64,000 nucleotides of DNA, taken from positions 2,728,001 to 2,792,000 of the forward strand of contig NZ_JAUSYH010000001.1 of NCBI RefSeq assembly GCF_030816715.1, read 5' to 3'. Source of the stretch: Streptomyces achromogenes (GTDB taxonomy: Bacteria; Actinomycetota; Actinomycetes; Streptomycetales; Streptomycetaceae). The notes below the pieces were generated by a model. It had not been told where the DNA came from and made no database searches. It saw only the letters and a program-made list of their open reading frames with translations. Positions 19,295 through 39,027 of this stretch are shown here, piece after piece; the stretch's first letter is position 1, and each line of letters starts with the position of its first letter. A program made the position numbers and the translations under genes.

Positions 19295-19573
19295 TCAGCG
19301 CACGTAGGGGAGGTCAAATCCGGCCTCGTTCGAAGCCGTTTCATACGTCGACAACATGGACGACACCGTCGACCGGATCTCCGCCAGAGAGAAACCAGCC
19401 TCTTCCAGGTCCCCCGAACCCAGATAACTTGCCAACTCCTCGACGGTCTCCTGAAGCACCTTCAGGGAGTCTCCCTGTACGGCCAGTGCCGGATACCGGC
19501 GGTCCGGCAGACGGACTACAGCAAAGTTTCCCGAAGCTGCGAGGACTGTGGCTGAGCTTTCCTGTTCGTTCAT
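19295..19573 (-). CDS. Candidate immunity protein of orphan RHS tip
   Basis: 92 residues, family not recognised. Acidic and helical (VLQETVEELASYLGSGDLEEAG, FSLAEIRSTVSSMLSTY), small and cytoplasmic, as many polymorphic-toxin immunity proteins are. It starts 2 bp after the end of the decayed toxin tip on the same strand, the expected place for an immunity gene. The reading frame is intact although the toxin is broken, as would be expected if immunity to related strains were still useful. Confidence 0.6.
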   Translation of the reverse strand: MNEQESSATVLAASGNFAVVRLPDRRYPALAVQGDSLKVLQETVEELASYLGSGDLEEAGFSLAEIRSTVSSMLSTYETASNEAGFDLPYVR

Positions 19574-19575
19574 CC

Positions 19576-19990
19576 CTAACCCTGTGGATAGAAGGTGACG
19601 TGGGGCCTGGTGGTGTCAAGCGGCCCGGTGAAGATGTCCTGCCGCCGCCCGACGCCTACACTGACGTCGGCCTTCGGCAGCGAACTGGACACAGAGTGCT
19701 TGGTGCGGCTGTTGATTCCCGTGATCACGTAGTCCCAGTCGGACTCGCCGTGCCATCCATCCGGATTCGACGACGATCGCGGCCCCAGTGTCCGGCTACC
19801 GATATCGGCTTCCCGATCCGGTTCGCGGCGTTCTGGATCCGAGCCCTCTCCCCGAGAGATTCGCCAGGTTCGCGCCTGCTCCGGCGGATGGGGCACAGGG
19901 AGTCGAGTTGTGCACAAGTACCGGTGTCCGCCCCGCCAGCACATAGTACGTGTGCGGGCGGGGTCGCCGTCAGCTGCAACTTCGCTGGTC
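19576..19990 (-). pseudogene. Orphan RHS C-terminal toxin tip, frameshifted
   Basis: Reading across frames gives the Hint-domain end HTYYVLAGRTPVLVHNS, then ERARIQNAANRIGKPISV, a GSR motif and SDWDYVITGINSRTKHSVSS, ending LDTTRPHVTFYPQG. GS(R)...DxD-like spacing suggests a nucleotidyltransferase-fold toxin. At least three frameshifts within about 150 bp and the lack of any upstream RHS body make it a decayed, displaced tip. The Hint end nearly equals that of the intact RHS protein at 32 kb. Confidence 0.7.
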
Positions 19991-20046
19991 AGGCTCCGAT
20001 TTGACAGCCGTTCCACGTCCGTGCGTGTGCACTGAAGTCCACCGGT

Positions 20047-20072
20047 GTTGCCGTCACTACTGCCGTCAACGG
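20047..20072. repeat. Left copy of element-end repeat (attL or arm-site)
   Basis: A 26-bp stretch starting GTTGCCGTCACTACTGCC; the same 26-mer with two single-base indels occurs right after the integrase at 30617-30642, same orientation. Each contains two TGCCGTCA units. These are either the attachment-site direct repeats or integrase arm-binding sites. Confidence 0.5.
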
Positions 20073-20112
20073 TCTAGACCACTCAGGGAGTTCTCGGGAT
20101 TTGAGATCCACG

Positions 20113-20349
20113 TCAAGCGGCCTCGTCGTGCGGAGTGAGACTGATGCTCAAGTCGGCTCCAAGGGCACGGGCCAGGCGGCGCAGCATCGGAAGGGTGGGC
20201 ACCGTTCCGCCGGCTTCGAAGCGGGAGATCTGTGGCTGTTTCATCCCGCACCGCTCAGCCAGCTCGGCCTGGGACAGCCCGAGCTCGGTGCGCCGGTCGT
20301 GGACGAGTCTGCCCAGCTCGCGGGCGAGTGCTGTGGAGGCGTCATGCAT
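20113..20349 (-). CDS. XRE-family DNA-binding protein
   Basis: 78 residues, nearly all helix-turn-helix: LGLSQAELAERCGMKQPQISRFEAGGTVPTLPMLRRLARAL. It resembles HigA-type antitoxins. It lies 14 bp after another XRE gene that follows a RelE-like toxin, so it is the third gene of a toxin-antitoxin operon. Confidence 0.82.
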   Translation of the reverse strand: MHDASTALARELGRLVHDRRTELGLSQAELAERCGMKQPQISRFEAGGTVPTLPMLRRLARALGADLSISLTPHDEAA

Positions 20350-20363
20350 GGCTCCTCCCGGGT

Positions 20364-20702
20364 TCAGGCGGCCGGGGCAACGATAGTGACAGTGGGCTCA
20401 TCCCCAGGGGCGAGGTGCATGTCGACGGTGAGGTCCAAGGCCCGGGCCAGGCGCATGATGACAGCGATGGGCGGCAGTTCGGTGGCGGTCTCGATGCCTT
20501 CGATCTCGTCGGTGGTGGTGTGCAGGCGCTCGGCCAGATCGGCCTCGCTCAGACCGAGTTGCTTGCGCCGGTCGTAGACGGCTTTGCCCAGCGTCATGGC
20601 CAGGCTGGCTTCTTCGTAGACGCGGTCATACTCGGGGTCGGCGTCGAGGTGTTCACCGATCAGCTGGCGGTGGCGGCGGGTCCTCCATTCGCTGTGGTTC
20701 AT
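20364..20702 (-). CDS. XRE-family antitoxin
   Basis: 112 residues. A helical N-terminus (YDRVYEEASLAMTLGKAVYD) precedes an XRE domain (LGLSEADLAERLHTTTDEIEGIETATELPPIAVIMRLARAL). Its ATG overlaps the stop of the RelE-like gene by 4 bp (ATGA), which makes it the cognate antitoxin in HigBA-like toxin-first order. Confidence 0.85.
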   Translation of the reverse strand: MNHSEWRTRRHRQLIGEHLDADPEYDRVYEEASLAMTLGKAVYDRRKQLGLSEADLAERLHTTTDEIEGIETATELPPIAVIMRLARALDLTVDMHLAPGDEPTVTIVAPAA

Positions 20703-21082
20703 CGGTTCTCCTTGAGGTCGCGGCTGTAGAGGTCGTGTTCGGCGGCTGCCTGGTGCTCGGCTTCGCACAGCCGTTGAGCGGCGTGCGCGCGGTCCACTTC
20801 GGCCTGCTCGCGCATCTTGGTCTTGCGGAACACGGTGAGCAGCACGACGCGACGGTCGGGTGCGAGCCAGTAGGTAATGCGCTGGTGAGCATCGCCGAGG
20901 CGGAAGCGCAGCTCGCGGAGCTTGCCGCCCAGGTGGCGGGAGTGCGGTTCGTCGAGCGTGGTGGGCTGCTCGGCGAGCAGGTCGGCGACGCGTTCGGCCT
21001 GCTTGTAATGATGGGCGGGAATGTTCTCCAGCCACAGCCGCACCTCCGGCTCGATCTCGATCGAGTACCGCCCGCTGTCCAT
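20699..21082 (-). CDS. RelE/HigB-like toxin
   Basis: 127 residues. IEIEPEVRLWLENIPAHHYKQAERVADLL, RHLGGKLRELRFRLGDAHQRITYWLAPDRRVVLLTVFRKTKM is the phage-Gp49/HigB pattern of the RelE superfamily, with conserved arginines in the strand region. These enzymes cleave ribosome-bound mRNA. Start ATG 21082 chosen; a GTG seven codons upstream is possible. Maintenance of the integrated element is the likely role. Confidence 0.85.
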   Translation of the reverse strand: MDSGRYSIEIEPEVRLWLENIPAHHYKQAERVADLLAEQPTTLDEPHSRHLGGKLRELRFRLGDAHQRITYWLAPDRRVVLLTVFRKTKMREQAEVDRAHAAQRLCEAEHQAAAEHDLYSRDLKENR

Positions 21083-21728
21083 AGCACCGATGATATATGG
21101 CACGGGGTGCGAGAGCGCGACTTCGTAGCTCAGGTCGTGTGCCGTCGCCACAACCGCGGCCACTCCAGCGTCGCTCACCCCCCATACTCCCCCCTTCGTC
21201 CTGATGCCACGGCGCCGCCGCGAACCAGCGGCAACCGGCCGAGGCGGCGCAGGGCCGGCTTCTTTCGACAGGATCGGGCCCGAGCGGAGAGGCAGCGTGC
21301 GGCCGGGCCGGCGCGTCGCCCAGTCTCGCGGCGCGGGGACCGGGGCGGGAGGGGGCGGCCTGCGACGGGCGGCCGGGAGCTTCGCTCCCCGCCGGAGGCG
21401 ACGCCAGCCACCGCCCTCGGTGGGTCCGGCTACGGGCGTGAGGGTCGGCCCCTTGGTCGGCCCTTGCCTGCGATCCGGCCGTAGGACGGTCGTAGGCGAC
21501 AACTTGCTGTGCGACACGCAAGGCCTCACGCCCACAACTCGCTCCCGGCGGCACCAGGTTGAGCCCCGCTCACGCCCGGGACCGGCCGCCCGCCGACACT
21601 CGGCACGAGCGTCGACTGCTCGCCCGACGGTGGGCCGGTCGGCGACGTTCGGCCAGCTCAGACGGACGGGGCCCGCCTTGAACCTCGTAGAGAAAATCTG
21701 AACGCACACTCCCGGACCGCCCTTGTCC
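21083..21728. other. Non-coding or decayed stretch of the conjugative element
   Basis: About 650 bp with no supported gene: open frames exist on both strands but have no recognisable domain and are rich in Arg/Pro/Gly as random high-GC frames are. A small stem with arms GGGAGC/GCTCCC at 21388-21400 is present. The right edge is the IS481 terminus. Confidence 0.45.
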
Positions 21729-23707
21729 GGTCCCGGGAGATGCTTGACACTTCGGTCCCAGCTGATGGTTGACAGTGGCCGTGATCGGCTTTTCTGTGCA
21801 CGTCGTTGCGGCGTGTGGCAGGAGGCCGGGATTGGCGCTGGTGGAGTTGTCGGTTGTCGAGCAGAGATACCGGGCGGTCCTGGCCGTGCTGGCGGGTGCG
21901 ACCGTGACCGAGGTGGCCGCTCAGCTGGGGGTCTCGCGGCAGACGGTGAGCGGGTGGAAGTCGAGGTATGCGGCCGCGGGCCTGGCAGGTCTGGCAGACC
22001 GGTCACGTAGGCCGGCGTCGTGTCCGCATCAGGCGTCCGCCGAGGTGGAAGCGGCCGTGTGTGAGCTGCGGCGCAAGCACCCTCGGTGGGGTCCGCGGCG
22101 GATCGCTCATGTGCTGGAGCGGTCCGGGACGGTGGCGCCGGTGCCGTCGCGGATGACCGTGTATCGGATCCTGGTCCGTCATGGGCTGGTCGAGCCGGGG
22201 GTCCGGCGGCGGAAGCGGTCGGATTACAAGCGCTGGCAGCGCGACCGTGCGATGCAGCTGTGGCAGATGGACATCGTCGGCGGGGTGATGCTGGTCAACA
22301 CGGTCACTGGCGAGCTGACCGAGGCGAAGATCGTGACCGGCGTGGACGATCATTCCCGGTACTGCGTGATCGCGTCGGTGGTCGAGCGGGCGACCGGACG
22401 GGCGGTCTGCGCGGCCTTTGCCCGGGCCCTGCAGGCGTTCGGGGTGCCGGAAGAGGTGCTCACGGACAACGGCAAGCAGTTCACGGACCGGTTCGGTCAC
22501 GGTGGTGAGGTGTTGTTCGACCGGATCTGCCGGGAGAACGGGATCGCGCACCGGCTGACCCAGCCGGCGTCGCCGACCACGACGGGCAAGGTCGAGCGGT
22601 TCCACCAGACCCTGCGGCGTGAACTCCTCGACGACTGCGGTCCGTTCGAGAGCATCGAGCAGGCTCAGGCGGCACTGGACGAGTGGGTGCAGGAGTACAA
22701 CTCGGTGCGGCCGCATCAGGCGCTGGACATGCAGTCGCCGGGCGACCGGTTCATGCCGGTCCCCGAGCAGGAACGGGATGTGCTGGGCCTGAAGATCCCC
22801 GGGGTGCTCTCCCTGGTGCCGCAGCAGCGGACGGCTCGCGCTGCGGTGCCGGATCCGGTCGGGGCGGTGCCTGCCCCTGCCCCTCCGCCTGAGCCGGTCC
22901 CGGCCGTGGTGCAGGTGGACGAGGGCGGCCCGGTGGAGTTCGAGCGGGTGGTGCCTGCGAGTGGGAATCTGCAGGTCGCGGGCAAGCAGTTCTGGCTCGG
23001 TCCGGCCCGTTCGGGGTTGACGGTGACGTTCTGGGCGGACACTTCGGTGATCCATCTGCTGATCGCCGGGACGCGGATCAAGAGCGTGCGTTCGCACCTG
23101 TCGGTGGCGGATCTCGCGCAGCTGGCCGCCCGGTGTGGACGTGCGGCCGGTCCGCCGCCGCTGCCTGCCGGGGACGGGGCCGCGTTCGAGGTGGACCGGG
23201 TGGTGAACAACAGCGGCCTGGTGGGCCTGGCCGGGCATCAGGTGCTGGCGGCGGAGATCCTGGGCGGCCGTGCGGTGGGTATCCGGATCGACGATGAGAC
23301 GCTGTCGTTCTTCGATCCGGCCTCGCGGGAGCTGCTGCGGGTGCGGCCCAACCCGCTGACCAGCGAGGAAGTCAGACGGCTGCGGGGTCTGCGTCCGGCC
23401 GGTCCGCCGCCGCGGCCGCGCGTGGAGCCGGTCAGCGTGCAGCGGCGGATCAGCGCGGTAGGCACCGTCATGGTCTGCCGGCAGACCATCCCGCTCGGCC
23501 GCCCCTATGCCGGTCAGACCGTGACCGTGCACGTGTCGGACACGACGATCACGGTCGAGCTGGACGGCCAGATCCGCGTGATCCGCCGCACGACCGATGT
23601 CCCGGTCCGTAACGTGAAAGCGAACAAGCCCCACGGGGCTTCCCACGTTTCCTAGGCCTACCGTCAAGCCTCAGGTGGGACCAGAACGTCGTGCATCAGC
23701 TGGGACC
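21729..23707 (+). mobile_element. IS481-type insertion sequence with two-module ends
   Basis: Each end carries two tandem copies of a module of the form GGTCCC-N8-TTGAC. Left modules begin at 21729 and 21754, right modules (inverted) at 23707 and 23682, each pair spaced by 25 bp. GGTCCCAGCTGATG is identical in the left inner and right outer module. The outer limits may extend a few bases further; no target duplication was identified. Confidence 0.7.
21832..23655 (+). CDS. IS481-family transposase with long C-terminal extension
   Basis: 607 residues. N-terminal HTH (VTEVAAQLGVSRQTVSGWKSRYAAAG), HTH-like 21 region, then rve/DDE integrase core with D147 (WQMDIVGG), D212 (VLTDNGKQF) and E255 (GKVERFHQTLR). 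After residue 330 a 270-residue extension follows with beta-rich repeats (FWLGPARSGLTVTFWADT, TIPLGRPYAGQTVTVHVSDT). TTG at 21832 is chosen since AGGAGG stands exactly 6 nt upstream; an earlier TTG/GTG in frame lies inside the terminal repeats. It appears intact. Confidence 0.88.
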   Translation: MALVELSVVEQRYRAVLAVLAGATVTEVAAQLGVSRQTVSGWKSRYAAAGLAGLADRSRRPASCPHQASAEVEAAVCELRRKHPRWGPRRIAHVLERSGTVAPVPSRMTVYRILVRHGLVEPGVRRRKRSDYKRWQRDRAMQLWQMDIVGGVMLVNTVTGELTEAKIVTGVDDHSRYCVIASVVERATGRAVCAAFARALQAFGVPEEVLTDNGKQFTDRFGHGGEVLFDRICRENGIAHRLTQPASPTTTGKVERFHQTLRRELLDDCGPFESIEQAQAALDEWVQEYNSVRPHQALDMQSPGDRFMPVPEQERDVLGLKIPGVLSLVPQQRTARAAVPDPVGAVPAPAPPPEPVPAVVQVDEGGPVEFERVVPASGNLQVAGKQFWLGPARSGLTVTFWADTSVIHLLIAGTRIKSVRSHLSVADLAQLAARCGRAAGPPPLPAGDGAAFEVDRVVNNSGLVGLAGHQVLAAEILGGRAVGIRIDDETLSFFDPASRELLRVRPNPLTSEEVRRLRGLRPAGPPPRPRVEPVSVQRRISAVGTVMVCRQTIPLGRPYAGQTVTVHVSDTTITVELDGQIRVIRRTTDVPVRNVKANKPHGASHVS

Positions 23708-23755
23708 CGACAACCCTGCGCTGCGTCTTCTGCTGCTCCGTCTGGTGCGGCTGGT

Positions 23756-24634
23756 TCAGCGCCGGCGTCTGCCTTCGTTCAGCCGGTCGTGCAGGCGCTG
23801 GACGCTGGCGGCCTGTTCTTCAGGCGTGTAGTTGCCACTGAGGCGCTTGCGTTGCTCCATGACGGCGCGCATGGCGTCACGGTGGGCGGTAGCGGCTTCG
23901 AACTCGGTGCTGGCCTTGGTGAACCGCTCCTCGGCGGCGGCGAGTTCGGCGGCCACCTCGTCATCGCTCTTTCCGCTGAGCCGTACCGCTTCCTCGTCCG
24001 CTCGACGCTGCGCCGCCATTTCCTCCAGCCCCTCGTTGTAGCGCTTGAGGAACTGATCGCGCGGGCTGAGCTGTCGGACGAAGACCCCCCGGCCCTGCAC
24101 GGAGTAGATCAGCCCCTCCTCCTTGAGGACCCGCAGGGCGTTCTGCGCGGTGGAGTTGGCGATGCCGTAATGGGCTTGCAGGTCGCGGGCGGAGGGGAGC
24201 TTGGCCCCAGGTGCGAGCCGGCCGTCCTGGATCTGCTTGCGGAGCGCGTCCGCGGTCCGCACGTACGGGGGTCGGGGATCGTCAGCGGGGCTGTCGGCGG
24301 TCTGCCAACCGCGCCGGAGGTCACCGAGACCGGTGTACTCAGGATCGGACTCGCCCAGATCGACTTCGTCTTCCTCTGCTTCGGTGGTCACCATCGGCTT
24401 CGGCGCGCGTACGTAGCTGCCCCGGCCGAGGACGGAGTAGATCAGCCCCTCCTCCTTGAGGACCCGCAGGGCGTTTTGGACCGTGGAGCTGGCGATGCCG
24501 AAGCGTCGTTGCAGCTCGCGCGCGGCGGGGAGCCGTTCACCTGGGCGCAGCTCGCCGTCGTGGATGGCGGTGCGCAGGACGTCGGCGGCCTGGACGTACG
24601 GCGGCCGGGGGTCCTCTCCCAGGGGCAGCTTCAT
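23756..24634 (-). CDS. GntR-family regulator with two winged-helix domains
   Basis: 292 residues. Two GntR DNA-binding domains occur in tandem: residues about 9-75 (PPYVQAADVLRTAIHDGEL, LKEEGLIYSVLGRGSYV) and about 125-190 (PPYVRTADALRKQIQDGRL, LKEEGLIYSVQGRGVFV). A coiled-coil-rich tail follows (EEVAAELAAAEERF type). More than 40 bp of DNA in the two halves is identical (near 24102-24143 and 24434-24475), so the duplication is recent. Position suits the KorSA-like repressor of pSAM2-type elements. A 20-bp palindrome lies 60 bp upstream. Confidence 0.85.
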   Translation of the reverse strand: MKLPLGEDPRPPYVQAADVLRTAIHDGELRPGERLPAARELQRRFGIASSTVQNALRVLKEEGLIYSVLGRGSYVRAPKPMVTTEAEEDEVDLGESDPEYTGLGDLRRGWQTADSPADDPRPPYVRTADALRKQIQDGRLAPGAKLPSARDLQAHYGIANSTAQNALRVLKEEGLIYSVQGRGVFVRQLSPRDQFLKRYNEGLEEMAAQRRADEEAVRLSGKSDDEVAAELAAAEERFTKASTEFEAATAHRDAMRAVMEQRKRLSGNYTPEEQAASVQRLHDRLNEGRRRR

Positions 24635-24693
24635 GGCACGAGGGTAGCGGCGTCGGCACTCGCGGCACACCCGGGCGTCCTCGGCGTTCCAGA

Positions 24694-24713
24694 CGTATCG
24701 CTGTAGCGATACG
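24694..24713. promoter_or_regulatory. 20-bp perfect palindrome, candidate GntR operator
   Basis: CGTATCGCT-GT-AGCGATACG, between the divergent GntR gene and the transfer operon. A second repeat GAGTCG-N6-CGACTC lies at about 24760-24777. Well placed to repress both directions. Confidence 0.65.
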
Positions 24714-24798
24714 AATCGAGTGTTGCGGGTGTAGCGAGTGTGCCGCTATGGTCATGGCGAGTCGATCAAGCGACTCCATCGAACGAGGATGTGATGGC

Positions 24799-25152
24799 AT
24801 GGCCATGACTCGAATCCGTGTTGCCCTGCTGCCGTCGGCGGTGTGCATCGCGGGCACCGAGCCGGTGCTGAAGATCAAGGACCAGCAGACCGGGGAGGTC
24901 GCCACCGACCGGGAGACCGGCGCGTCGCTGTACACGGTGACCGTGATGCTCATGGAGGACGGCCGCGCCGAAGTCCTGAAGATCACCGTTCCGGAGACGG
25001 GCCTGGCGGCCGGGCTCAAGCCGGGGGCGATGGTGCGGCCTGTGGAGCTGTTCGCCACCCCGTGGGCGCGGATCTTCAATGGTCAGCTCTCCGACGGTGT
25101 CGCCTACCGTGCTGCTCGCCTGGAGCTGGTGACGGTGGAGGCGAACCAGTGA
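24799..25152 (+). CDS. SCO3933-type regulatory protein
   Basis: 117 residues. The pattern DQQTGEVATDRETGASLYTVTVMLMEDGRAEVLKITVPETG and LFATPWARIF matches a family found at this spot in many Streptomyces conjugative elements (family name recalled from SCO3933); its role is thought to be regulatory, but no mechanism is known to me. GAGG lies 10 nt before the ATG 24799; ATG 24805 is an alternative. First gene of the rightward transfer operon. Confidence 0.75.
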   Translation: MAMTRIRVALLPSAVCIAGTEPVLKIKDQQTGEVATDRETGASLYTVTVMLMEDGRAEVLKITVPETGLAAGLKPGAMVRPVELFATPWARIFNGQLSDGVAYRAARLELVTVEANQ

Positions 25153-25337
25153 CCCGCTTCGAACGCCACCTGTCGGAGCGGGAGTTGTACCCGCTCCGGC
25201 CCCTGCCGGGGACCGAGGGCAAGGCCACCTTCGCCGTCTCGGCTGCCGTGCTCGATCTGCTCGGCCTGGACCCGGAACAGGCGGCCCACCTCGACCTGGC
25301 CCACGCCCTGCGCCTGATACGCGAAGAGGGGGCCTGA
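25149..25337 (+). CDS. Small conserved element protein
   Basis: 62 residues, acidic and helical (FAVSAAVLDLLGLDPEQAAHLDLAHALRL). GTG start overlaps the preceding stop (GTGA), and its stop is 1 bp before the TraB-like start, so it is co-translated. Small proteins of this type accompany the transfer gene in related elements; function unknown. Confidence 0.7.
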   Translation: MTRFERHLSERELYPLRPLPGTEGKATFAVSAAVLDLLGLDPEQAAHLDLAHALRLIREEGA

Positions 25338-25338
25338 C

Positions 25339-26730
25339 GTGGAAGCCGTCACGGGATACGCGTCGTACGTGCTGCCGATCGCTACGGCGCTCATCGGTGT
25401 GTGGCTGGTGTGGACGGTGGTGCGCTACGTACGGGCCGACCGGCGCACGCGGGTCAGCATGCGGCAGGCCGTCCGGGTCCGCTGGGGCTGGGTACGGCTC
25501 GCGCGGATGGCGGGACTGACGGTCACCGACAAGACACCGAGCCTGCTCTCGCAGATCACCGCCCAGAAGGACAGTCCCCCGCCCGCTCCCCGGGTGCTGA
25601 CTCCGAAGATCAAGGTCAAGCCCGACCAGTTCGGGGTGATCGTGCGGGCCCGGACGCTGCCGCAGGTCGGGCTGGAGGAGTACCAGAAGTCGGCGCGGTT
25701 CCTGGCCGATGCCTGGCGGTGCACGCGGGTGTCCGTGCTGCCGGACGGCCCCGGCAAGGTGGTGATCCGGGGCGTGCGCTCCGACCCGCTGACCACGCCG
25801 ACCACCCACCGGCCCACCGGCCGACCACTCACGGACCTGACGCGCTGGGAGCTGGGCGTGGACGAGTACGCCGCCCGGGTGTGCGTGTCCCTGGCGAACG
25901 TGCCCGGTGTGACGGTGGCCGGCGTCCCGGGTGCGGGCAAGACCTCGGGGGTCAACAAGTTCGTCTGCGACTTCGCACCGTCGGCCGCCGTGCAGATCGC
26001 AGCTGCGGACGGGAAGGTGTCGCGGGCATCGGAGGGCGACTACGCCGACCTGGTCAAGCGGATGTTCGCGTTCTGCGGCGACGACCTCGACGAAGCGAAC
26101 GCACTGTTCAAGCGCCTGGTGGAGCTGCGCAAGCGGCGCTCGGCGACCATCCGCGACGTGCTGGGCGTCAAGAACATGTGGCACGTCGGACCCTCCCCTG
26201 AGTGGCCGCTCACGGTCCTGATCATCGATGAGGCGCACACGTACTTCCGCGAGTACAAGGGCAGCGACGCCGAGACGAAACGTTTGGCCGCGTTGACGGC
26301 GGAGAACGCCCGACTGGTGGAGGACCTGGTCAAGAAGGGCCGCAGCGTCGGCATCCTGGTGATCCTGATCAGCCAGAAGACCACCGGTGTTGCCATCCCC
26401 ACCTTCATCCGCGACGTGTGCCCCATCGGACTCTCCTTCGCACAGAAGACCGTCGAAGCCGCGGTCGCCGCACTCGGCGAGGACATCCGCAACTGGCCCG
26501 ATTCCAGCCCGGTGACCTTGCAGGACCCCGCCTACGTCGGCGTCGCGGTGATGGCGATGCAGGGCCGCCCGGGCTACACCCGCATCCGCACCCCCTACGT
26601 CTCCGACGCCGACGCCGCCCGCGTCGCGGACGCCACTTCGCACCTGACCGCCGACCCGGACCTGTGCCTGGACGCTCTCCTCCGTACGACCGGCCGGACG
26701 GCACCGCCCACACCCTCGCTCACCAAGTGA
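25339..26730 (+). CDS. FtsK/SpoIIIE (TraB-like) DNA transfer ATPase
   Basis: 463 residues. An N-terminal membrane helix (YVLPIATALIGVWLVWTVV), then a RecA-like motor with Walker A AGVPGAGKTSG (about 194-204) and Walker B VLIIDEAHTYF. In pSAM2-type elements this hexameric pump moves double-stranded DNA between hyphal compartments. GTG start at 25339, 1 bp after the previous stop. The gamma DNA-recognition domain of larger TraB proteins is not evident at the C-terminus. Confidence 0.9.
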   Translation: MEAVTGYASYVLPIATALIGVWLVWTVVRYVRADRRTRVSMRQAVRVRWGWVRLARMAGLTVTDKTPSLLSQITAQKDSPPPAPRVLTPKIKVKPDQFGVIVRARTLPQVGLEEYQKSARFLADAWRCTRVSVLPDGPGKVVIRGVRSDPLTTPTTHRPTGRPLTDLTRWELGVDEYAARVCVSLANVPGVTVAGVPGAGKTSGVNKFVCDFAPSAAVQIAAADGKVSRASEGDYADLVKRMFAFCGDDLDEANALFKRLVELRKRRSATIRDVLGVKNMWHVGPSPEWPLTVLIIDEAHTYFREYKGSDAETKRLAALTAENARLVEDLVKKGRSVGILVILISQKTTGVAIPTFIRDVCPIGLSFAQKTVEAAVAALGEDIRNWPDSSPVTLQDPAYVGVAVMAMQGRPGYTRIRTPYVSDADAARVADATSHLTADPDLCLDALLRTTGRTAPPTPSLTK

Positions 26731-26766
26731 TCCCGAAACGCCCACGCCAGAAAGGAGGTTGAGATC

Positions 26767-27501
26767 ATGGCGGAGGAACGGTTCACCCGGCGCACCGTGA
26801 CCGTGGTCATGGCAGTCATCGCGGCCCTGGCCTTCGTCTTCTCCTTCGGCAACGTCTGGGCGCTCGCCCTACGCCTCGGCGTCCCGCGTCCGATCGCGCC
26901 GCTCATCGCCCCCATGGTGGATCTGTCCGTCGTCGGACTCCTGGTCGCACTGCGCTTCCTGGCCCTGCGCGGCGCACCCAAGGCGGAGCTGCGGGCCGGC
27001 ACCCGGCTGCTGCACCTGTGCGGACTGCTCACCCTCGCCCTGAACACCGCCGAACCCCTGCTGACCGGACGCTACGGCCGCGCCTGCCTGGACACCGTCG
27101 CCCCGCTCCTGCTCCTCGGCTGGGGCCACGTCGGCCCCGCCTTTCTCGCCCAGTTCCACACACCCATCGTCCCCGCCCCGCACCCGGAGGAAATTGCCGC
27201 TCCTCTCTCCGAGCCGGTGCCCGACGAGGCATCCGCACCCGAATCAGCACCCACGGTCCCCGTCCCGGTCACCGCGGCCTCGCCGGTCGAAGATCCGAAG
27301 CCCATCCCAGCTCCGACCGCCATCTCCAAGACAGCCCACTCCGCCTCCGGCCCGGCGCTGCCGGCGGCCCTGCTGAACGCGGCCCGGCGCATCGCGGACA
27401 CCCACCGTGCCGAGCACGAAGCGCCGATCACAGCGGCCCAGTTGGGGATTCGCATGGGCATCGCCCTGCCGGTGGCCACCGCCGCACTCGCTCAGCTCTG
27501 A
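26767..27501 (+). CDS. DUF2637/Spd-like membrane protein
   Basis: 244 residues. About four membrane helices in the first half (VTVVMAVIAALAFVFSFGNVW, PLIAPMVDLSVVGLLVALRFLAL, LLHLCGLLTLALNTAEPLL, APLLLLGWGHVGPAFL) and a Pro/Ala-rich cytoplasmic half ending in a helical DNA-binding-like segment. Such proteins follow tra genes in Streptomyces plasmids and help intramycelial spread. AGGAGG precedes the start (about 26752). Confidence 0.85.
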   Translation: MAEERFTRRTVTVVMAVIAALAFVFSFGNVWALALRLGVPRPIAPLIAPMVDLSVVGLLVALRFLALRGAPKAELRAGTRLLHLCGLLTLALNTAEPLLTGRYGRACLDTVAPLLLLGWGHVGPAFLAQFHTPIVPAPHPEEIAAPLSEPVPDEASAPESAPTVPVPVTAASPVEDPKPIPAPTAISKTAHSASGPALPAALLNAARRIADTHRAEHEAPITAAQLGIRMGIALPVATAALAQL

Positions 27502-27571
27502 GCCCCGGCCCTCATCGGCCGCATCCCCCTCGCTCAACCCCACGCCCACCCGCTGGGCCTGGTTCGTCATG

Positions 27572-30642: not shown

Positions 30643-30646
30643 CACG

Positions 30647-30683: not shown

Positions 30684-30702
30684 ATTTGCGTGTGTACGTG
30701 AG

Positions 30703-31029: not shown

Positions 31030-31189
31030 CGTTTCAGAAGCTCAGGTCCATCGGGAATGATTCTGAGAAATCCCCGACCGTGACCTTACCGGCAGCCTCG
31101 GAAGGCGACGAGACGCCACCCTCCGAGGCGGGATCACCGATCACTTCGATCGCGAATCGGCTATTCCTTGAAAGAGCTGCTACTCCGCC

Positions 31190-32053
31190 TCACCCCTCAC
31201 CAGGGCTCTCCCATGCTGCTCTGACTACGCCATCTGAATCTGGCACCACGGCGCACCACCCAGCCAAGACCGCATCCGCCAGCATGAACGAAAATCCGCT
31301 GCCAGCTACTTCGGCGAGACTATCGGCCCCTCCTGGGTGGGCGCGGTAAATGAGTTGGCCAGGCGTGAGCGGGGCTTCGAACGCAGTGAAATCTTCGTCC
31401 AATAGCCCTGCATCGAGCCGCAGGTCCGGGTTTGCGACGACGCAGAGGAGCGAGCGAGACCGTACAACCTGTGCCACCTCCGTCACATTTCCCACAGTCA
31501 CCCGGAACCATCGGCAGCCGTAAGCGCCGTGCGCCCAGCGCTCACACAAGAGCACTAGCCCATCAGCCGCCGCGCGAACCGAGTCCCAAAACTCGTCATC
31601 CACGACGCCATCGACAAGTCTTGGTTCCTCCTCCGGGTCCGGTTCCGATGTGCGCCACTCAAGAGACAGGTTGTCGCCAGTGAGCCCGGTAAGCGAATTG
31701 GATACCGCTGGATCCATTGAGAGATGGATGGCCCCATCCCATCCCGACTCGACGCGAAGCCGCCCCGGCGTGATCAGTCGGCAGTACGGCCCGAACCCAG
31801 CCGCCATCCGCTCAGCGAGATCTATCGCCTCCGCCGGGCTGGCCTGCATCCCGTTGCGGAGCCTCCAGTACCGGTCAGGGAGCGGTTCGCTGACCAGCAG
31901 CTCACCGACCTCAAGATGGTCAGCTCCGCATTCCTCGATCACCACGTTGAGCAACCTCCGCAAATCCGCCGCGTAGGCACTCCAGGCCGGCGCCTCTGCC
32001 AGGGAGGCGCGCACATGCTGGTCGCTCGGGCTGACGACTAGCTCGGCTGTCAT
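31190..32053 (-). CDS. Candidate immunity protein for RHS toxin
   Basis: 287 residues, cytoplasmic, no family recognised with certainty. Segments SPAEAIDLAERMAAGFGPYCRL, VESGWDGAIHLSMDP and CERWAHGAYGCRWFRVTVGN can be noted; there is no signal or membrane helix. The ATG at 32053 overlaps the RHS stop by 4 bp (ATGA), giving tight coupling with the toxin; a GTG at 32065 would lie inside the toxin gene. Position alone supports immunity function. Confidence 0.65.
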   Translation of the reverse strand: MTAELVVSPSDQHVRASLAEAPAWSAYAADLRRLLNVVIEECGADHLEVGELLVSEPLPDRYWRLRNGMQASPAEAIDLAERMAAGFGPYCRLITPGRLRVESGWDGAIHLSMDPAVSNSLTGLTGDNLSLEWRTSEPDPEEEPRLVDGVVDDEFWDSVRAAADGLVLLCERWAHGAYGCRWFRVTVGNVTEVAQVVRSRSLLCVVANPDLRLDAGLLDEDFTAFEAPLTPGQLIYRAHPGGADSLAEVAGSGFSFMLADAVLAGWCAVVPDSDGVVRAAWESPGEG

Positions 32054-35000
32054 TTGGCTAGCCACTTGAGACCCAACACCTCTCCTGTCGGGGATACATC
32101 CAGCCCATACGTTCCGTCCCGAGCCGAATCCTTCGTCGACTGGAAAGGATTACGGAAGCTGGCACCCTTGAATACCGCCTGCTTGTTATGCCCGGTCCGA
32201 TCGTAGGTGATATATCGAGGTTGACCACCTCCAGCCTTCTTGTTCTCCCAAATTGGGGCCCCGCCTGCAGACTTCATTTTGGTCTTCGTGTACCCCAAGA
32301 AATTCGCAACATCGTCGGACTGTGCACGCGTGAGCGAGTTGCAGTTGCTGTTGTGAACGAGGACCGGCGTCTGCCCAGCGAGTACATAGTACGTGTGCAG
32401 TTCCTCGACGGTGAGGTTGTACATGTCGGCGTCACCGGGTCGGTCCACAACCGCGATGACCCGCACGTGTTCATCGGTAGCGGTATTGAGGACGTGGCCA
32501 GGCCGGAGGCTGCGAGCCTGCACCCAGGAGTGGGTGGTGTCGTCCCAGAAGGGGTGGCGGGATGTGGTCCGGAGCGTCAGATCCTTGCCCTTGAGATCTC
32601 GGATCACCACGTCGGTCAAGTCGTCGTCATGGTGTACGAAAACGGCAGTGACCTCGTGCGGGCCTTGATGCTTTCCAGTTTCGGGATCGGCACTCTCGAC
32701 GCGATCCCCCTGCTTGACCTTGTCAATGGGCTTGGTTTCACCGTCCGCCATAAGGACTTGCGTCTCCGGGTCGAAACTGCACGGCCCACCCGCTGCCGAG
32801 CTTTTCCCGGATCCCCGTCCGCGCAGACCGCCTAGCCTCCCATTGCCGGCGACCAAGCCGGACTCGGCTCCGGCAGTTACCAAGTCGACGGGATTGAACC
32901 AGTCATCACCGCAATCCCACCCTGAGGGGCACGCATACATTTTCCCCTTGACTCTTTGATAGCCATTCGGATCAGATCCGTCCGCCCCCGGGGCCATGCA
33001 GTCATAGCTGTAGCCCAGATTTGGGTCACAAACGTACTCGACCCACTCCTGGAATGACTCAGCAACCGCATCAACATGTGGATTATTGACGGGAATATAA
33101 ACGCCCGGGTAAACCTTGACGTTCCATTCTCCATTGCTCTTGACGACATTGTTCGAGTCACCATGAGCAGCTGCTGGGAGATCGCCAACGTATCCAGCCC
33201 CGCTGTATGAGGGAGCTCCCACTCCGCCAGCACCGGAAGGCGCGTGGGTAACGTATTCTTTCTTGCCCCCGTTGGAACCTGTTCCGCCAATGGGGTAGCC
33301 GATGCCGCACTGGTCGGCCATGCAAAGACCGGTGGGGTCACTATGGGTGACGGGGTTGTTGTCGCTGTAGCTGTAGCCGTTGAGACTCTGCGGGTCGGCA
33401 GGGATGAGGACGGGGTCGACGCTGATGAACTGGCCGATGGACGGGTCGTATTCGCGGGCGCCGACGTGCGTCAGGCCGGTCGTGGCGTCCCGTGTTTTGC
33501 CGAGGAAGCCCTTGTCGTCGGGCCAGGGGCCGTACAGCGGTGCGCCGCGGTCGTTCCCGAACGGCGTCGTGTAGCGCTTGGTGAAGGTCTGGTTGGCGTC
33601 CGGGTTGAGGGAGAGCGACGAGGTGTTGTGTCGGTCGCCCGTCAGGTAGCTGAGCTTGTTGGTGCCCGACTGGTTCGTGCGGACGGCCGCCGTGACGTCG
33701 CCTGCCGCGTAGTAACGCTGGGCCCACATCGTGCCGTTGGCGCGGAGGTGGAGTTCCGTGGCGCCGGCGTACAGAACTCGCTCGCCGTTCTGCGTGTTGC
33801 GGATCAGCAGGGAGCCGTCGGCGGAGTACACGTAGTCCGTCGACGCCCCGTTCTCGGTGAGCTTGCTCAGCTGACCCTCGGTAGACCACGCCAGGGTCTG
33901 GGTTCCCTTTGCGCCGGGGCGCAGCGACGTGTTGCCCGACTTGTCGTACGTATAGGTCCGCTCAGGAGCCGTGCACGCGGGCTTGGTCGTGGTGCCGGTC
34001 AGGGTGTGCGGCTGTGCTGCGTTGGTGTAGCAGTAGGTCGTCTTCGTGTCGCCGGTGCTCTTGTGGACCGTCTCGCTGGTCCGCTGACCCGCTTGGTTGT
34101 AGGTGTAGGACGACCAGTACGGGGCCGGGCCCGACAAGCTGGACGCGCTTCGGGCGTCGGAGCACTTCTGCGAAGCGGGGGTCCACGCCTCCGTCAGGCG
34201 CTGGTGGCCGTCGTACGCGAAGCACTGCGTGTCGGCGGAACTCGCGCCGCCCAGAAGAGTCGGATCGCTGATCGCCGTGACGTTGCCGGTCTCGTCGTAG
34301 GAGTAGTTGAGGTCCTGCAGCATGTAGCCGTGGGTCTTGTCCGTGACGTGGCTGTTACGGAGGCGGCCGGTGCCTTCCTCGAAGGTGTTGGCGACGAAGA
34401 AGCTCTTGGCGTCCGTGCCGCCTGTTCCCAACTCCAGTTGCATGGGCTGCGCGAGAGCCGAGTAGTCGACGTTCAGCAGATAGCCGGTCGCGCCGCCGAT
34501 CGACTTCACATGCCCCAGGGAGTCGTAGTCGTAATCGACATACTCGGACGGCAGCCCTCCGAGAGCCGGCTCCTTCGTCATCTTCAACGTGCCGTCGATG
34601 TTGTAGTACGTCTCGAACGCCAAGGTGGTCGGCGCTCCGGCCTTCACGAAGGGGTCGCTCGCCGGCACTTGCAGCTGGGTGGTGGTGGCGCGGTTGAGAT
34701 TGTCGTACGCGGTGACGGTCTGCGTGTACGCCGCTCCGGACTTGCCGCCCAGGTACCTGGTGGACGAGGTGGGCTCACCCTTGAGGGGGGCGTCATAGGC
34801 GAAGGCGGTGAGCTGGGTGGCGTCCGTCTGGGAGTTCTCCCAGGTACCGGTGGGGCGGCCCAGTTCGTCGTAGGCGGTCAGGACCGACTTGCCTCGTGAA
34901 TCCGTGGTCTTCACCGGGCGGTCGAGGACGTCGTACTCGGTGGTGGTGGATCCCTTGTCGGGGTCGACTGCGGTCACCTGGCGACCGAACAGGTCGTAGC

Positions 35001-38000
35001 CGTATGACCATGTGGCGTCGTCCGGTCCGGTGATCGTCTCCTGCTGTCCGTCCAGGCCGTAGCTCAGCTTCGTGCGGGTGTACGAGGCTCCGACAGTGCT
35101 GCCGAAGGAGGCGTCGGCCGGGCTTGTGCTCGCGTACTCACGTGTTTCGGTCGTCTGGCCGCGCACGTCGGTGATCGTGCGGTGCGCCGAGCCACCCTCG
35201 AGCGCCGTGGTCGCGACGGAGTCACCGGTGTAGCTGGTGGCGGTTGTCCACTTCTTGACCCCGAAGATGTACAGGCTGGTGCTGGTGGCGCGGCCCGCGC
35301 CGTCGAACACCGTCTCTGCCTGCGTGGGGGCTTCACCGTTCTCGGCCCTGGTGTACGTGCCGTCGGGCGTGCTGGTGTTGTCGAAGATGTCGGCGTGCGT
35401 CTCGTACGCCAGACCACGCGTGTCGTATCGGGTGTCGGTCAGCAGCCGACCGCCGTTGGGAGTCGGTGACTGTGACTGGAGGGGACGCAGGAGTGCGTCG
35501 TAGAGCGTGTAGGTGGTGTTGTAGGTTTCGCCGTCCTTCTTCAGGGACGAGGACGAGACCCACGACGCCTTGGTGTTGTCCAGGTGGTAGGCGAACTTCT
35601 GGTTCGGCGCCTGGCTCCCGCTCGTCCGGTTCGGCAGCCAGACCTGTGTCGTGCGGCCGAGCGCGTCGTAGCTCAGCTCGGTCTTCCTGCTGTTGACGTC
35701 GTAGACGCGCAGTGGCTGGCCTCGGCGCGGGTCGAGGTAGCTGACCGTCTTGTAGGTCTTGGGGTCGGTGGTGATGGTCCGGGTCAGCGGTCCCGCGTCG
35801 ACGGGGGTGTACGCGAGCAGGGTGGGAGAGTTGGTGGTCGCGTCGCTGACGCTCAGGGGCCGACCCAGAGTGTCGTATGTCGTGGCGGAGGTCTTCTGCC
35901 ATGCGCTCGGCAACCGGTCGCCGTTGGCGTCCGCGGCGGCCGCGTAGCCGGTGGCGCGGCCGGTCCAGGTCGCCAGACCCTTGGTGGGCTTCTGGGACGC
36001 CGACCAGGCCGTGACGGTGGCGGTGTCGTACACGGTGCTGACGTCGGCGATCACATCGCCGCGCTTGGGCTTCGCCGGGTCCATGGACGCGGGCAGAACC
36101 AACGAACTGTCCGCCGTCGCACAGGTGCGGGCGACCGCACGGGTGCGTGACACCGCACTGGTGAGGCCGAGGTCGGTGTTGCGGGCGTACCAGGTGCGCG
36201 TGCAGGTCTCGTCCGATGCCTTGCCCACGTCCCCGGCGTCCTCCACCGTCACCGGCATGCCGTAGCTGTCGAAAGACGTGCTGGTGAGGCGCTCACGCCA
36301 GGTCTTGGAGGCGGTCAGGTAGGTGTAGCCGTGCACTTTCTCCGTGCGGACGTAGCGTGCGATGTGGACGCCGGCGCCGGGCGGGGTCTGCCGGGCCGTC
36401 TCCTGTGACCAGGGATCGTTCAGCGTCGCCGCGATCGCCGTGGAGCCGTCGTAGGTGACCTGTTCGCGCAGTTGCCCCGCGTACTCGGCCTTGTCGGTGA
36501 CCGAGGCCGCTCCGAGGGCCGGTGCCGGCAGCGGTGCGACGGAGACGGACTTCGTGGTGCCGTCGCTCTTCTCGTCGCCGTGCATACCCTGCAGATAGAG
36601 GGAGACCGTCTTCGAGCGGGTTCTGTCTGTCGCGCCCGTCCATGCCGTGACCTGGGCGTATCCGCGCCATTCGGACCAGGTGCGCTCGGCCTTCTTCGTC
36701 ATCGGATCGTCGTTGTGGTGCCAGGCGGCGCCGCTGTAGGCGTACGCGTGCTCGACCGTTTCGTTGGCGGCGGTCGGGTCGGAGACGGTGACGGCCAGTA
36801 CCCGGTACTTGTGGAACCAGTCGATGGAGGCGTTCTCGGCGCCGTTGATGTGCCAGAACTGCGGGTAGCAGGACCGGGTATTGGTGTCGGGCGCCGCGTT
36901 CAGCACCTGGCTGCGTACGCACTCCTCGCCCGAGAGGGTCACCGTGGTGATCGCACCGGTCTCGGAAGTGACGGTGTTGATGCGCGGGCGGGTCAGGGGC
37001 AGGATGTCGTCCGTGGCGTCGACCCGGTTGGGGCGCATGTGGTAGGTGAACGTCACCGGCGCGAGCGTGATGGCCGTGTCGCCCGCCTTCGCGGTGCGCC
37101 TGAGGGACTTCAGGGTCAGTACCTGGTCGGAGCTGTCACCGATGTCCCCACCGTCCAGGTACTCCTCCGTCAGGTCCCAGGAGTCCACGGCGTCGTACGC
37201 GGTCGTGGTGGCGTTGTAGGAGAAGGTGTCGATCCCGGTCAGGCGCTTGCGGGAGAAGAAGGACGGGCCGGCCGCGTCGCAATCGTCGTCGTCCTTGGAG
37301 CAAATCGCATCGAAGGGGACGTCGGGCCAGTTCTCGGAGGTGTCCTTGGTCAGGCTGGAGCAGTCCGCGGCGGTGCAGCGCTCGGCGTAGCCGAAGGTGA
37401 CCTTCGCGTCGGGCTTGTCGGTGAAGAGAGCCCCCTTGCGCAGCCCGTATTCGATCCGGCTCAGGTAACCGCCGCGTGTATAGGCCGCGTTGGCCGTCTC
37501 GGACTTGTTCTTCTTGTAGTAGTTGGTTTCCTTCGCGTACCAGTAGGTGGCCGCGTTGCCTCGGGTGTCCTCGACGTAGTCGAGGTTCCACCGCCAGGCC
37601 TGGTCGAGGGCGCGGTCGGCGAAGGCGTCGCCGCCGGAGTAGCCGGGCTCGCCGGAGTCGTCGCCGAACACCGGCACCGTCGAGACGGAGTTGGTGCGCT
37701 GGGCGTCCGCCCCGTCGAGCTTGTTCTGGCCGAACACGTACTTGGTTCCGTCGCCGGTGACGACGGTCCAGTACTCACCGTTGTCGTCGCCGTTGTCCGC
37801 GCCGGTGGAGCGCGTCACCTTCGAGGCGTCGTCGTTCTCCAGCCGCCACAGGCCGTCATCGTCGTCCTTGACCAGTCTTGAGGACTTGCCGTTCAACACG
37901 ATGCGCGCGTTGTCGTACTTCCAGCAGGAGTCGAAGACGTCGTCGTGACCGTCGTCGTCGCAGGATCCGTAGGAGCGCTCGATGTAGGACTCGGTGATGC

Positions 38001-39027
38001 CGAAGCCCTCGCCGACCGAGGTGCCCTGGTTGTTGGAGGTGGCGGTACGGCCGTCCACGCTGCCCGAGTCGTACGAGAGGGACAGCGGCGGCTGCGGGCC
38101 TGCGGCCGCCGGAGGCAGCGTGAAGTCGTACGACCAGGTGAAGGAGCCCGAACTGCCGCCGGACTCCCAGGACGAGGACGCCGACAGCGGCGTCGCCGCG
38201 TAGTTTCCGGAACCTTTCGGGGACGCTCCGGAACCGGGTGCGGCGGCCGTCACGGCCAGCACGGTGGCGGCGGGAGCAGCAGCACTGCCCGACGCCTTCA
38301 TGAGTTGCGTGGCAGTTCCGCTGCCGGCCTCGGCAAGGCTCACGTTGGCTGACACAGACTGACGCTCGAGGTCGTTGTCCGACACCAGCGGACGCTGCTT
38401 GCGGCACTCCGGCTTCTCGGGCGTCGTCAACGCGCAGGCGGGGAGCTGCACGAGACGCAGCCGCTGGGACCAGCCGCCGCCGACGGCGGAAGCGAAGCCG
38501 CTGTAGTCGATGCTGACCTTCGCGTCCCCGGCGCTGTCCGTGTCGGCGGTCAGCAGCACTCCGGTGATGCCTGCCGCACGGGCTGCCTTCTGGTCCAGCA
38601 TCGTGAGGCGCGTCTCGCCGCCCGCGGCGGCTTTCCCGGCGGTGAGCGGCGCGATGGTGACCGGGACGCCGGCCGGTTTGGCGCCGACTGCCTTGCCCTG
38701 CGAGAGACCGAGTGTCGCCTCGCCCCTTCCGGGCCAGATCGCCTTCTGTTGTGTGCGGGCCTGGTCGGCCTGTGCCTTGTTGGCCTTCTTGTCCCGCCCG
38801 ACCTGCCGTCGGGCCTTCTCCGCGCCGAGGCCCTCGAACTCCTTGACCTTGCTCACCCGGGACGCGGGCACGTCGGAGCGCCCGAGACCTGGGGATTCCG
38901 CGGCTTGTGCCAGTTGCGCCACGCCCAAGGGCACGACAAGCGCCAGTGCCAGCGACTGCACCAGGATCCGGCCGGTGCGGCGCTTCACATCCCGGGCAAT
39001 CCCTGAGGTGCCCCTGCCAAGGTTCAT
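32050..39027 (-). CDS. RHS-repeat polymorphic toxin with Hint domain and toxin tip
   Basis: 2325 residues. An N-terminal membrane/signal segment (VQSLALALVVPLGVAQLAQAA) is followed by a long beta-rich body with many YD/RHS repeats (YDTRGLAYETHADIF, YDLFGRQVTAVDPDKGSTT), the RHS core (VGAREYDPSIGQFISVDP, YSYSDNNPVTHSDPTGL), a Hint autoprocessing domain (CSFDPETQVLMADGE ... LHTYYVLAGQTPVLVHN, about 2085-2226) and a 99-residue tip with TYDRTGHNKQAVFKGASF. The tip looks like a BECR/Ntox21-type nuclease, tentatively. ATG 39027 is chosen over an upstream in-frame start because the signal segment follows it. It probably delivers the tip to competitors. Confidence 0.9.
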   Translation of the reverse strand: MNLGRGTSGIARDVKRRTGRILVQSLALALVVPLGVAQLAQAAESPGLGRSDVPASRVSKVKEFEGLGAEKARRQVGRDKKANKAQADQARTQQKAIWPGRGEATLGLSQGKAVGAKPAGVPVTIAPLTAGKAAAGGETRLTMLDQKAARAAGITGVLLTADTDSAGDAKVSIDYSGFASAVGGGWSQRLRLVQLPACALTTPEKPECRKQRPLVSDNDLERQSVSANVSLAEAGSGTATQLMKASGSAAAPAATVLAVTAAAPGSGASPKGSGNYAATPLSASSSWESGGSSGSFTWSYDFTLPPAAAGPQPPLSLSYDSGSVDGRTATSNNQGTSVGEGFGITESYIERSYGSCDDDGHDDVFDSCWKYDNARIVLNGKSSRLVKDDDDGLWRLENDDASKVTRSTGADNGDDNGEYWTVVTGDGTKYVFGQNKLDGADAQRTNSVSTVPVFGDDSGEPGYSGGDAFADRALDQAWRWNLDYVEDTRGNAATYWYAKETNYYKKNKSETANAAYTRGGYLSRIEYGLRKGALFTDKPDAKVTFGYAERCTAADCSSLTKDTSENWPDVPFDAICSKDDDDCDAAGPSFFSRKRLTGIDTFSYNATTTAYDAVDSWDLTEEYLDGGDIGDSSDQVLTLKSLRRTAKAGDTAITLAPVTFTYHMRPNRVDATDDILPLTRPRINTVTSETGAITTVTLSGEECVRSQVLNAAPDTNTRSCYPQFWHINGAENASIDWFHKYRVLAVTVSDPTAANETVEHAYAYSGAAWHHNDDPMTKKAERTWSEWRGYAQVTAWTGATDRTRSKTVSLYLQGMHGDEKSDGTTKSVSVAPLPAPALGAASVTDKAEYAGQLREQVTYDGSTAIAATLNDPWSQETARQTPPGAGVHIARYVRTEKVHGYTYLTASKTWRERLTSTSFDSYGMPVTVEDAGDVGKASDETCTRTWYARNTDLGLTSAVSRTRAVARTCATADSSLVLPASMDPAKPKRGDVIADVSTVYDTATVTAWSASQKPTKGLATWTGRATGYAAAADANGDRLPSAWQKTSATTYDTLGRPLSVSDATTNSPTLLAYTPVDAGPLTRTITTDPKTYKTVSYLDPRRGQPLRVYDVNSRKTELSYDALGRTTQVWLPNRTSGSQAPNQKFAYHLDNTKASWVSSSSLKKDGETYNTTYTLYDALLRPLQSQSPTPNGGRLLTDTRYDTRGLAYETHADIFDNTSTPDGTYTRAENGEAPTQAETVFDGAGRATSTSLYIFGVKKWTTATSYTGDSVATTALEGGSAHRTITDVRGQTTETREYASTSPADASFGSTVGASYTRTKLSYGLDGQQETITGPDDATWSYGYDLFGRQVTAVDPDKGSTTTEYDVLDRPVKTTDSRGKSVLTAYDELGRPTGTWENSQTDATQLTAFAYDAPLKGEPTSSTRYLGGKSGAAYTQTVTAYDNLNRATTTQLQVPASDPFVKAGAPTTLAFETYYNIDGTLKMTKEPALGGLPSEYVDYDYDSLGHVKSIGGATGYLLNVDYSALAQPMQLELGTGGTDAKSFFVANTFEEGTGRLRNSHVTDKTHGYMLQDLNYSYDETGNVTAISDPTLLGGASSADTQCFAYDGHQRLTEAWTPASQKCSDARSASSLSGPAPYWSSYTYNQAGQRTSETVHKSTGDTKTTYCYTNAAQPHTLTGTTTKPACTAPERTYTYDKSGNTSLRPGAKGTQTLAWSTEGQLSKLTENGASTDYVYSADGSLLIRNTQNGERVLYAGATELHLRANGTMWAQRYYAAGDVTAAVRTNQSGTNKLSYLTGDRHNTSSLSLNPDANQTFTKRYTTPFGNDRGAPLYGPWPDDKGFLGKTRDATTGLTHVGAREYDPSIGQFISVDPVLIPADPQSLNGYSYSDNNPVTHSDPTGLCMADQCGIGYPIGGTGSNGGKKEYVTHAPSGAGGVGAPSYSGAGYVGDLPAAAHGDSNNVVKSNGEWNVKVYPGVYIPVNNPHVDAVAESFQEWVEYVCDPNLGYSYDCMAPGADGSDPNGYQRVKGKMYACPSGWDCGDDWFNPVDLVTAGAESGLVAGNGRLGGLRGRGSGKSSAAGGPCSFDPETQVLMADGETKPIDKVKQGDRVESADPETGKHQGPHEVTAVFVHHDDDLTDVVIRDLKGKDLTLRTTSRHPFWDDTTHSWVQARSLRPGHVLNTATDEHVRVIAVVDRPGDADMYNLTVEELHTYYVLAGQTPVLVHNSNCNSLTRAQSDDVANFLGYTKTKMKSAGGAPIWENKKAGGGQPRYITYDRTGHNKQAVFKGASFRNPFQSTKDSARDGTYGLDVSPTGEVLGLKWLAK

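Follow-up and report, generated by a model that had tools for sequence, protein, structure and literature searches.

Did the toxin tip of an RHS gene arrive with the mobile element that lies behind it, or was it there before? The question is raised by a stretch of 64,000 nucleotides from Streptomyces achromogenes (the window, bases 2728001-2792000 of a 9.17 Mb genome), in which an element of conjugative type lies between an intact RHS polymorphic toxin gene and a decayed toxin tip. An earlier reading made from the sequence alone had named a decayed left tip, an intact immunity gene candidate, the conjugative element and the intact RHS gene, and all of these exist. It had placed the insertion between the main RHS-immunity unit and an orphan cassette. 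The cores of the attachment sites (att) fall inside codons of the Hint domain instead, and the alignments make it highly probable that the element landed within the RHS gene, replacing its 3' end in frame, with no array being split.

The breakpoint is located by aligning the two Hint ends at the DNA level, as the sequence-only reading had suggested. The left Hint end (HTYYVLAGRTPVLVHN, 19907-19954, minus strand) shows 84% DNA identity to the right one (32350-32397). Both share exactly 15 bp, ACATAGTACGTGTGC, on either side of which the sequence diverges, and both copies fall in the Hint codons H-T-Y-Y-V. The copy at 19941-19955 (HTYYV on the minus strand) represents the predicted attL core; the identical copy at 32384-32398, with different flanks, is the predicted attR core within the Hint codons of the RHS gene. 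Rightward of the left core, relatives share element DNA: in five related integrase loci (L025, L027, L036, L042 and L043) similarity to the window begins at ~21.3-21.6 kb and extends leftward as far as 19905-19908, into the Hint motif, beyond which the tips differ. As the DNA right of the left core is element DNA in these relatives, the integrated element is taken to span core to core (19956-32383, ~12.4 kb). No tRNA gene is found at either element end in the window. By this delimitation the Hint tail, the Ntox21 toxin tip, both immunity genes, a terminator and the integrase are placed inside the element, and only the old frameshifted tip and its DUF6959 gene outside. Since the cores lie within Hint codons, the active tip and its immunity genes are seemingly cargo of the element.

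The right side carries an intact RHS gene with a closely similar Hint end and immunity genes, all on the minus strand, as had been described. The gene runs from 39027 to 32050 and encodes 2325 aa with an RHS core (TIGR03696), a PT-HINT processing domain (PF07591) and a C-terminal Ntox21 toxin (PF15526), and with immunity downstream (PF18228) it has the layout of an RHS polymorphic toxin. RHS body and Hint domain occupy 32350-39027, whereby the portion below 32384 would come with the element; the Ntox21 tip, assigned by Pfam match and predicted to be element-borne, covers 32050-32349. The gene at 31190-32053 (minus strand, 287 aa, without Pfam match) is found directly behind an Ntox21 tip in L007 and L177 as well, and is likely the cognate immunity gene. 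A CdiI_N immunity gene (Pfam; minus strand) is located at 30703-31029, so that two immunity genes of different families stand behind one Ntox21 tip (30703-32053). CdiI as immunity solely for the present tip was considered and rejected, as its relatives in L053 and L054 follow a sister Ntox21 tip.

On the left, the displaced tip (19576-19940, minus strand) stands behind VLAGRTPVLVHN; it does begin with a Hint end and is frameshifted, in agreement with the decay noted earlier. A piece of it is 66% like the active tip of L079 (Kitasatospora aureofaciens), right behind which a relative of DUF6959 is found. The intact immunity candidate turns out to be a DUF6959 gene of 92 aa (19295-19573, minus strand; PF22281), and owing to the arrangement in L079 it is very likely the immunity gene of the displaced tip. 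An orphan remnant with DUF6959 is also present in L055.

The same arrangement recurs around related integrases. Searching with 12 query integrases led to 79 named loci, taken from the best 80 of 165 confirmed stretches, with hosts in Streptomyces, Kitasatospora, Streptacidiphilus, Actinacidiphila and Streptantibioticus and one record labelled Saccharothrix. Right flanks were counted in the 66 related loci with at least 1.5 kb beyond the integrase. Within 1.5 kb the strict Hint motif is found on the opposite strand in 53 of them and on the integrase's own (plus) strand in none (0/66). Seven further loci read PILVHN for PVLVHN at 0.8-1.2 kb, which raises the count to 60/66, with the motif at 0.6-1.5 kb. 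Forty-five strict matches have a right flank of 8 kb or more, and in 41 of these the RHS frame stays open for at least 1000 codons. It is shorter in L064 (290 codons) and L094 (765); L072 and L073 have a stop close upstream. To the left of the integrase, 53 loci offer 9 kb or more of sequence, and 34 of these possess a further Hint end. The nearest ones all lie on the minus strand (34/34), with a stop at most 12 codons upstream in 33/34. The window's left Hint end is thus more than a chance occurrence, because 34/53 related loci show one on the same strand. In L061 the left Hint motif (9616-9663) reads HTYYVLAEATPVLVHN, with E replacing the usual G.

Among 160 plasmid records with a match, the NCBI annotation was read in two. 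In NZ_CP108236.1 (Streptomyces sp. NBC_00080) the order is GntR, FtsK/SpoIIIE, DUF2637, integrase, a barstar-family protein, a polymorphic toxin-type HINT protein and a LamG protein, and the unit is bounded on either side by a core-bearing Hint end, of which the left one immediately follows a stop. The right end of NZ_CP109267.1 follows the same order with integrase, hypothetical protein, HINT protein and LamG protein.

An insertion at ~20.05/30.65 kb, between the RHS-immunity unit and an older orphan cassette and with the active tip being native, draws on an imperfect TGCCGTCA repeat at 20049-20074 and 30617-30642 and on an orphan tip that is real. It appears extremely unlikely, however, given that homology to the element runs past 20.05 kb to the Hint core in the five relatives named above. 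Moreover the TGCCGTCA repeats recur inside the unit, at most ~110 bp past the integrase in 72/77 loci (two or more copies in 66) and less than 200 bp inside the left end in 34/36, and the Hint core lies beyond the integrase in 60/66 loci with tip and immunity genes in between. The positions 20.05 and 30.65 kb hence mark repeats near the element ends rather than the ends, and the element is larger. That it separates the RHS gene from the displaced tip and its immunity gene holds; the insertion point does not. Likewise a direct joining of 20.05 to 30.65 kb is not predicted, the predicted junction being the shared core (19941-19955 with 32384-32398).

Unrelated elements could also have gathered by chance downstream of RHS genes, which do collect insertions; an ISL3-type copy and a transposase open reading frame are present here. 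The opposite-strand Hint motif at 0.6-1.5 kb in 60/66 loci stands against such a hot spot, as do the three PT-HINT matches in the 9.17 Mb of the own genome, leaving it next to no probability. At another of these genomic places the Hint end reads ACGTACTACGTG and no integrase is found in the fetched 1.5-kb flanks.

The block shared around the YYV codons was measured in 32 loci with both ends; its length is 10-47 bp, and at most 24 bp in 30/32. CGTACTATGT lies within this block in 32/32, and across 40 left and 66 right ends no base of CACACGTACTATGT falls below 90% conservation. In most of these loci the block is too short for ordinary homologous recombination. A second set of 45 RHS 3' ends (40 and L161-L165) was picked by similarity of the RHS body only, out of 113 genomes matching the body in a comparison that left 69 of 392 genomes unscored. 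A Hint end is recognised by motif in 14 of the 45. An integrase (at least 45% identity, within 2.5 kb) is near 5/14 Hint-bearing and 0/31 Hint-less RHS 3' ends (Fisher p 0.0016). The exact core CGTACTATGT is present in 12/14 Hint ends (5/5 with integrase, 7/9 without) at an expectation of ~3% from the codon usage of the window's RHS gene, though the sites share descent and a binomial value overstates the case. As 7/9 Hint ends without a nearby integrase retain the core, host RHS genes may keep attB at the DNA level.

Alternatively, RecA-type homologous recombination might swap the tips via the conserved Hint ends, with the integrase being a bystander. Hint ends are indeed conserved in protein and DNA, and in Salmonella an orphan-to-main RHS fusion was ascribed to recombination over a 522-bp near-identical region (PMC3967940; papers are cited here by such numbers and from excerpts of their text). 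In addition, G230 resembles the window at 91% over the integrase end and CdiI but does not have its tip, hence some tips must change by other means than arrival of an element. As the general route we nevertheless regard this recombination as very unlikely, since the shared blocks do not exceed 24 bp in 30/32 pairs, the integrase accompanies 5/14 Hint-bearing versus 0/31 Hint-less RHS genes, and the left ends retain element sequence up to the core.

The cargo of tips turns over: 42 clusters are needed for the 56 right-hand tips (one from the window, 55 from other loci) and 61 for the full set of 92. Homologous tips are shared by 4/159 integrase pairs that are 85-90% identical and by 1/3 pairs of at least 90%. 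At most 19/56 right tips are covered by 15 Pfam families, nuclease, deaminase, ADP-ribosyltransferase-like and Fic among them; the 36 displaced tips match 12 Pfam families. Ten clusters hold both active and displaced tips. Where the sequence continues for 2.5 kb or more behind a displaced tip (22 cases), it contains another integrase or a remnant of one in 15, indicating that earlier tips arrived as element cargo as well.

Several observations speak against an integrase-driven re-arming of the RHS gene. Among the 66 loci the motif is found only at 3.2 and 5.7 kb in L095 and L111, only on the left in L078 and L081, and is absent in L084 and L116. The right Hint end is preceded by a stop within 12 codons in L069, L072, L073 and L108 (4/53 strict matches), and L089 also has a close upstream stop; these five units are not fused to an RHS frame and fit members of a stack. 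No left Hint end is seen in 19/53 loci, and in the window a distance of ~1.7 kb separates the right TGCCGTCA repeats from the core, which is far for a classic arm site. No closed circle was found: the 6424-bp contig of L054/L122 was tried and rejected, with an estimated ~77 bp of integrase missing between its ends, and it fits a tandem stack equally well. Finally, an element-free copy of the window's RHS gene at high identity is not found in any relative (77% in DNA at best, with the above share of genomes unscored), so that the exact gene before insertion is not seen.

Element-free RHS loci do exist. Two relatives (L163 in G245, L165 in G135) have an RHS gene with one tip, followed by genes of the window's left flank, namely those at 13.5-14.3 kb and further left, not the thiolase gene at 15.4-16.9 kb. 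The expectation that relatives without the element have an RHS locus beside this flank is thereby borne out. G260 and G214 have an RHS gene and no integrase in the fetched stretch, G007 has an RHS gene without a Hint end by the motif used, and G106 shows a left-end remnant beside the RHS gene. Two genomes with a 96% identical left flank were rejected as clean empty sites: in G225 decayed remnants persist and the RHS gene is largely gone, and in G109 one short remnant is left and the stretch shows no RHS gene. In G215 and G124 the two flanks meet with no RHS gene between them.

Taken together, the gene content and the cores argue with high confidence for an element of the type of actinomycete integrative and conjugative elements (AICEs), with RepSA, an FtsK-like gene, GntR and a tyrosine integrase, and for an attB that consists of a short core within the HTYYV codons of the RHS Hint. 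In its circular form the Hint tail VLAGxTPVLVHN, the toxin tip and the immunity genes would lie on one side of the attP core, and an arm with an in-frame stop on the other. The integrase would recombine attP with the core in an RHS gene. On integration, the new toxin tip would be joined in frame to the RHS body and the specificity changed in one step, the immunity arriving together with the tip. The old tip would be shifted to the far end, bodiless and behind a stop codon, and successive integrations would stack tip-immunity-integrase units. Shared cores, in-frame fusion, conserved orientation, tips inside att-bounded units, stacks and element-free RHS loci are read directly from the DNA; catalysis by the integrase, excision, silence of the tip in the circle and action of the toxin on competitors would be further parts of the scheme.

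Seven sister integrases with 38-48% identity (four from one genome) show the Hint motif in 0/7 cases within 1.5-kb flanks, and tRNA genes are found at 5/7 of their loci, one of them in the source genome (L212, tRNA-Ala). The simplest history would be a switch of the integrase from a tRNA site to the RHS site. Matches at E <= 1e-120 occur in 52/200 genomes of the family and 6/17 genera. In a phylum-wide draw of 246 genomes two reach this threshold, namely the source genome and another member of its genus. Outside the family the top match is 42% identical. No integrase above 60% identity is contained in the phage collection. In G448 (C1, 4.55-4.93 Mb) the same integrase pair is found twice in opposite orientation with equal scores, which suggests a large inverted duplication. 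We consider it quite probable that these elements represent a separate class of mobile elements, so far from Streptomycetaceae, with a life cycle centred on the re-arming of polymorphic toxins. Its attP would be situated in a headless toxin cassette and its attB in a toxin gene, and the RHS locus would serve as a repeatedly re-armed docking platform that keeps stacks of older tips and immunity genes.

The remaining genes of the element are arranged as follows. Inside the left end, the TGCCGTCA repeats (20049-20074) are candidate arm sites of the integrase. They are followed on the minus strand by an XRE-type regulator, named by eye from the sequence (20113-20349), an HTH_31/HTH_3 regulator (20364-20702) and a Gp49/HigB-like gene (20699-21094). 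This block of two HTH regulators and the Gp49/HigB-like gene at the left end (20113-21094) is kept in several elements and possibly acts as toxin-antitoxin or in excision control. An rve/HTH transposase frame (21769-23655, plus strand) is seemingly a passenger. A GntR-type regulator (23756-24670, minus strand) and a SCO3933-family regulator (24748-25152, plus strand) come next. The plus-strand gene at 25339-26730 is assigned as FtsK/SpoIIIE-like transfer protein, the PF01580 match being below the Pfam cut-off and the gene at the same position in L215 being named FtsK/SpoIIIE by NCBI. It is followed on the same strand by a DUF2637 protein (26767-27501), an open frame for a RepSA-type replication initiator (27777-29084; PF20199, E 1.7e-85) and the tyrosine integrase (29290-30615, frame open from 28888; PF00589, E 6.3e-28), whose HDLRHS is invariant in 12/12 integrases. 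Just past the integrase stop lie the right TGCCGTCA repeats (30617-30642), and between the integrase and the immunity gene a terminator-like inverted repeat (30645-30690). Stretches resembling the latter are found in other genomes, several of them near Hint ends.

Outside the element, a Laminin_G_3 gene (39140-42859) adjoins the RHS gene. Left of the displaced cassette an ISL3-type insertion sequence with 33-bp inverted repeats occupies 17438-19062, its transposase being split over two open reading frames. The left-flank matches of G225 (96%) and G106 (87%) stop at 17438, the edge of this copy. Beside it a block of ~80 bp (19084-19165) is 85-91% identical in ten other fetched loci, and in L032 this block likewise lies beside an ISL3-like copy.

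The acquisition of RHS-type tips with matching immunity has so far been ascribed to homologous or illegitimate recombination. In the literature searched, judged on titles and the beginnings of abstracts, there is no report of integrase-driven RHS tip exchange. Now that there is a candidate for the integrase, along with a short core and an expected product, the question of tip acquisition becomes directly testable. If true, there would be an integrase-driven route to toxin diversity in which every new integration equips the toxin with another tip and moves the previous one out of the way, suggesting a conjugative element that benefits from arming its host. Because most of the 56 tips match none of the 15 Pfam families, the loci would also offer an easy route to new toxin and immunity families, and the integrase might be used to append a domain of choice to the end of a secreted protein.

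The element can be compared with several known systems. AICEs of the pSAM2 type combine RepSA, an FtsK-like gene, GntR and, next to one end, a tyrosine integrase; they usually, though not universally, integrate in tRNA genes. The window shows the RepSA-type initiator and the tyrosine integrase at one end, as well as a GntR-type regulator and the candidate FtsK-like gene. It differs from AICEs in that its predicted attB lies in RHS Hint codons, not in a tRNA gene, and in that the element would give a host gene a new toxin domain. Shufflons employ a tyrosine recombinase to alter a protein C terminus in frame. Here, in contrast, new domains would come from outside on a mobile element, not via inversion of local segments. 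In integrons the cassettes lack promoters and the integrase is stationary outside of them. The elements described here do not have such a stationary integrase, as copies or remnants of it are found behind displaced tips; the integrase lies inside each unit and insertion takes place within coding sequence.

Other parallels come from the excerpts of the literature. Decay and accretion at one site are likewise reported for AICEs in Streptomyces, whose sites, together with those of integrative and conjugative elements, number 36 in tRNA genes, 14 in protein genes and one between genes; by a text search the word Rhs is absent from the paper (PMC9513070). The excerpt of PMC3414803 contains nothing relevant. 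Prophages of M. abscessus with polymorphic toxin genes resemble the window element by toxin-immunity cargo at the attachment junction, yet their toxin genes have their own N-terminal export domain and, in the excerpt, attB is not in a toxin gene (PMC8092301). As in the effector-immunity arrays of the Vibrio cholerae type VI secretion system, a new module stands in front and older immunity genes are moved back; these arrays are likened to integrons, where new cassettes enter one site and old ones shift back, and differ from the window element since their authors report no evidence for an integrase facilitating effector-immunity insertion (PMC5361080, excerpt). The window also shares the layout of the RHS/WapA polymorphic toxins with tip displacement, which have a constant body, Hint, and a variable tip with immunity, followed by a series of immunity genes. 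For main and orphan rhs, homologous recombination is described in PMC3967940, and cassette recombination is inferred for RHS/WapA-type toxins in PMC3482391, in the first 300,000 characters of which the word integrase is absent. In the elements described here, the integrase travels with the tip.

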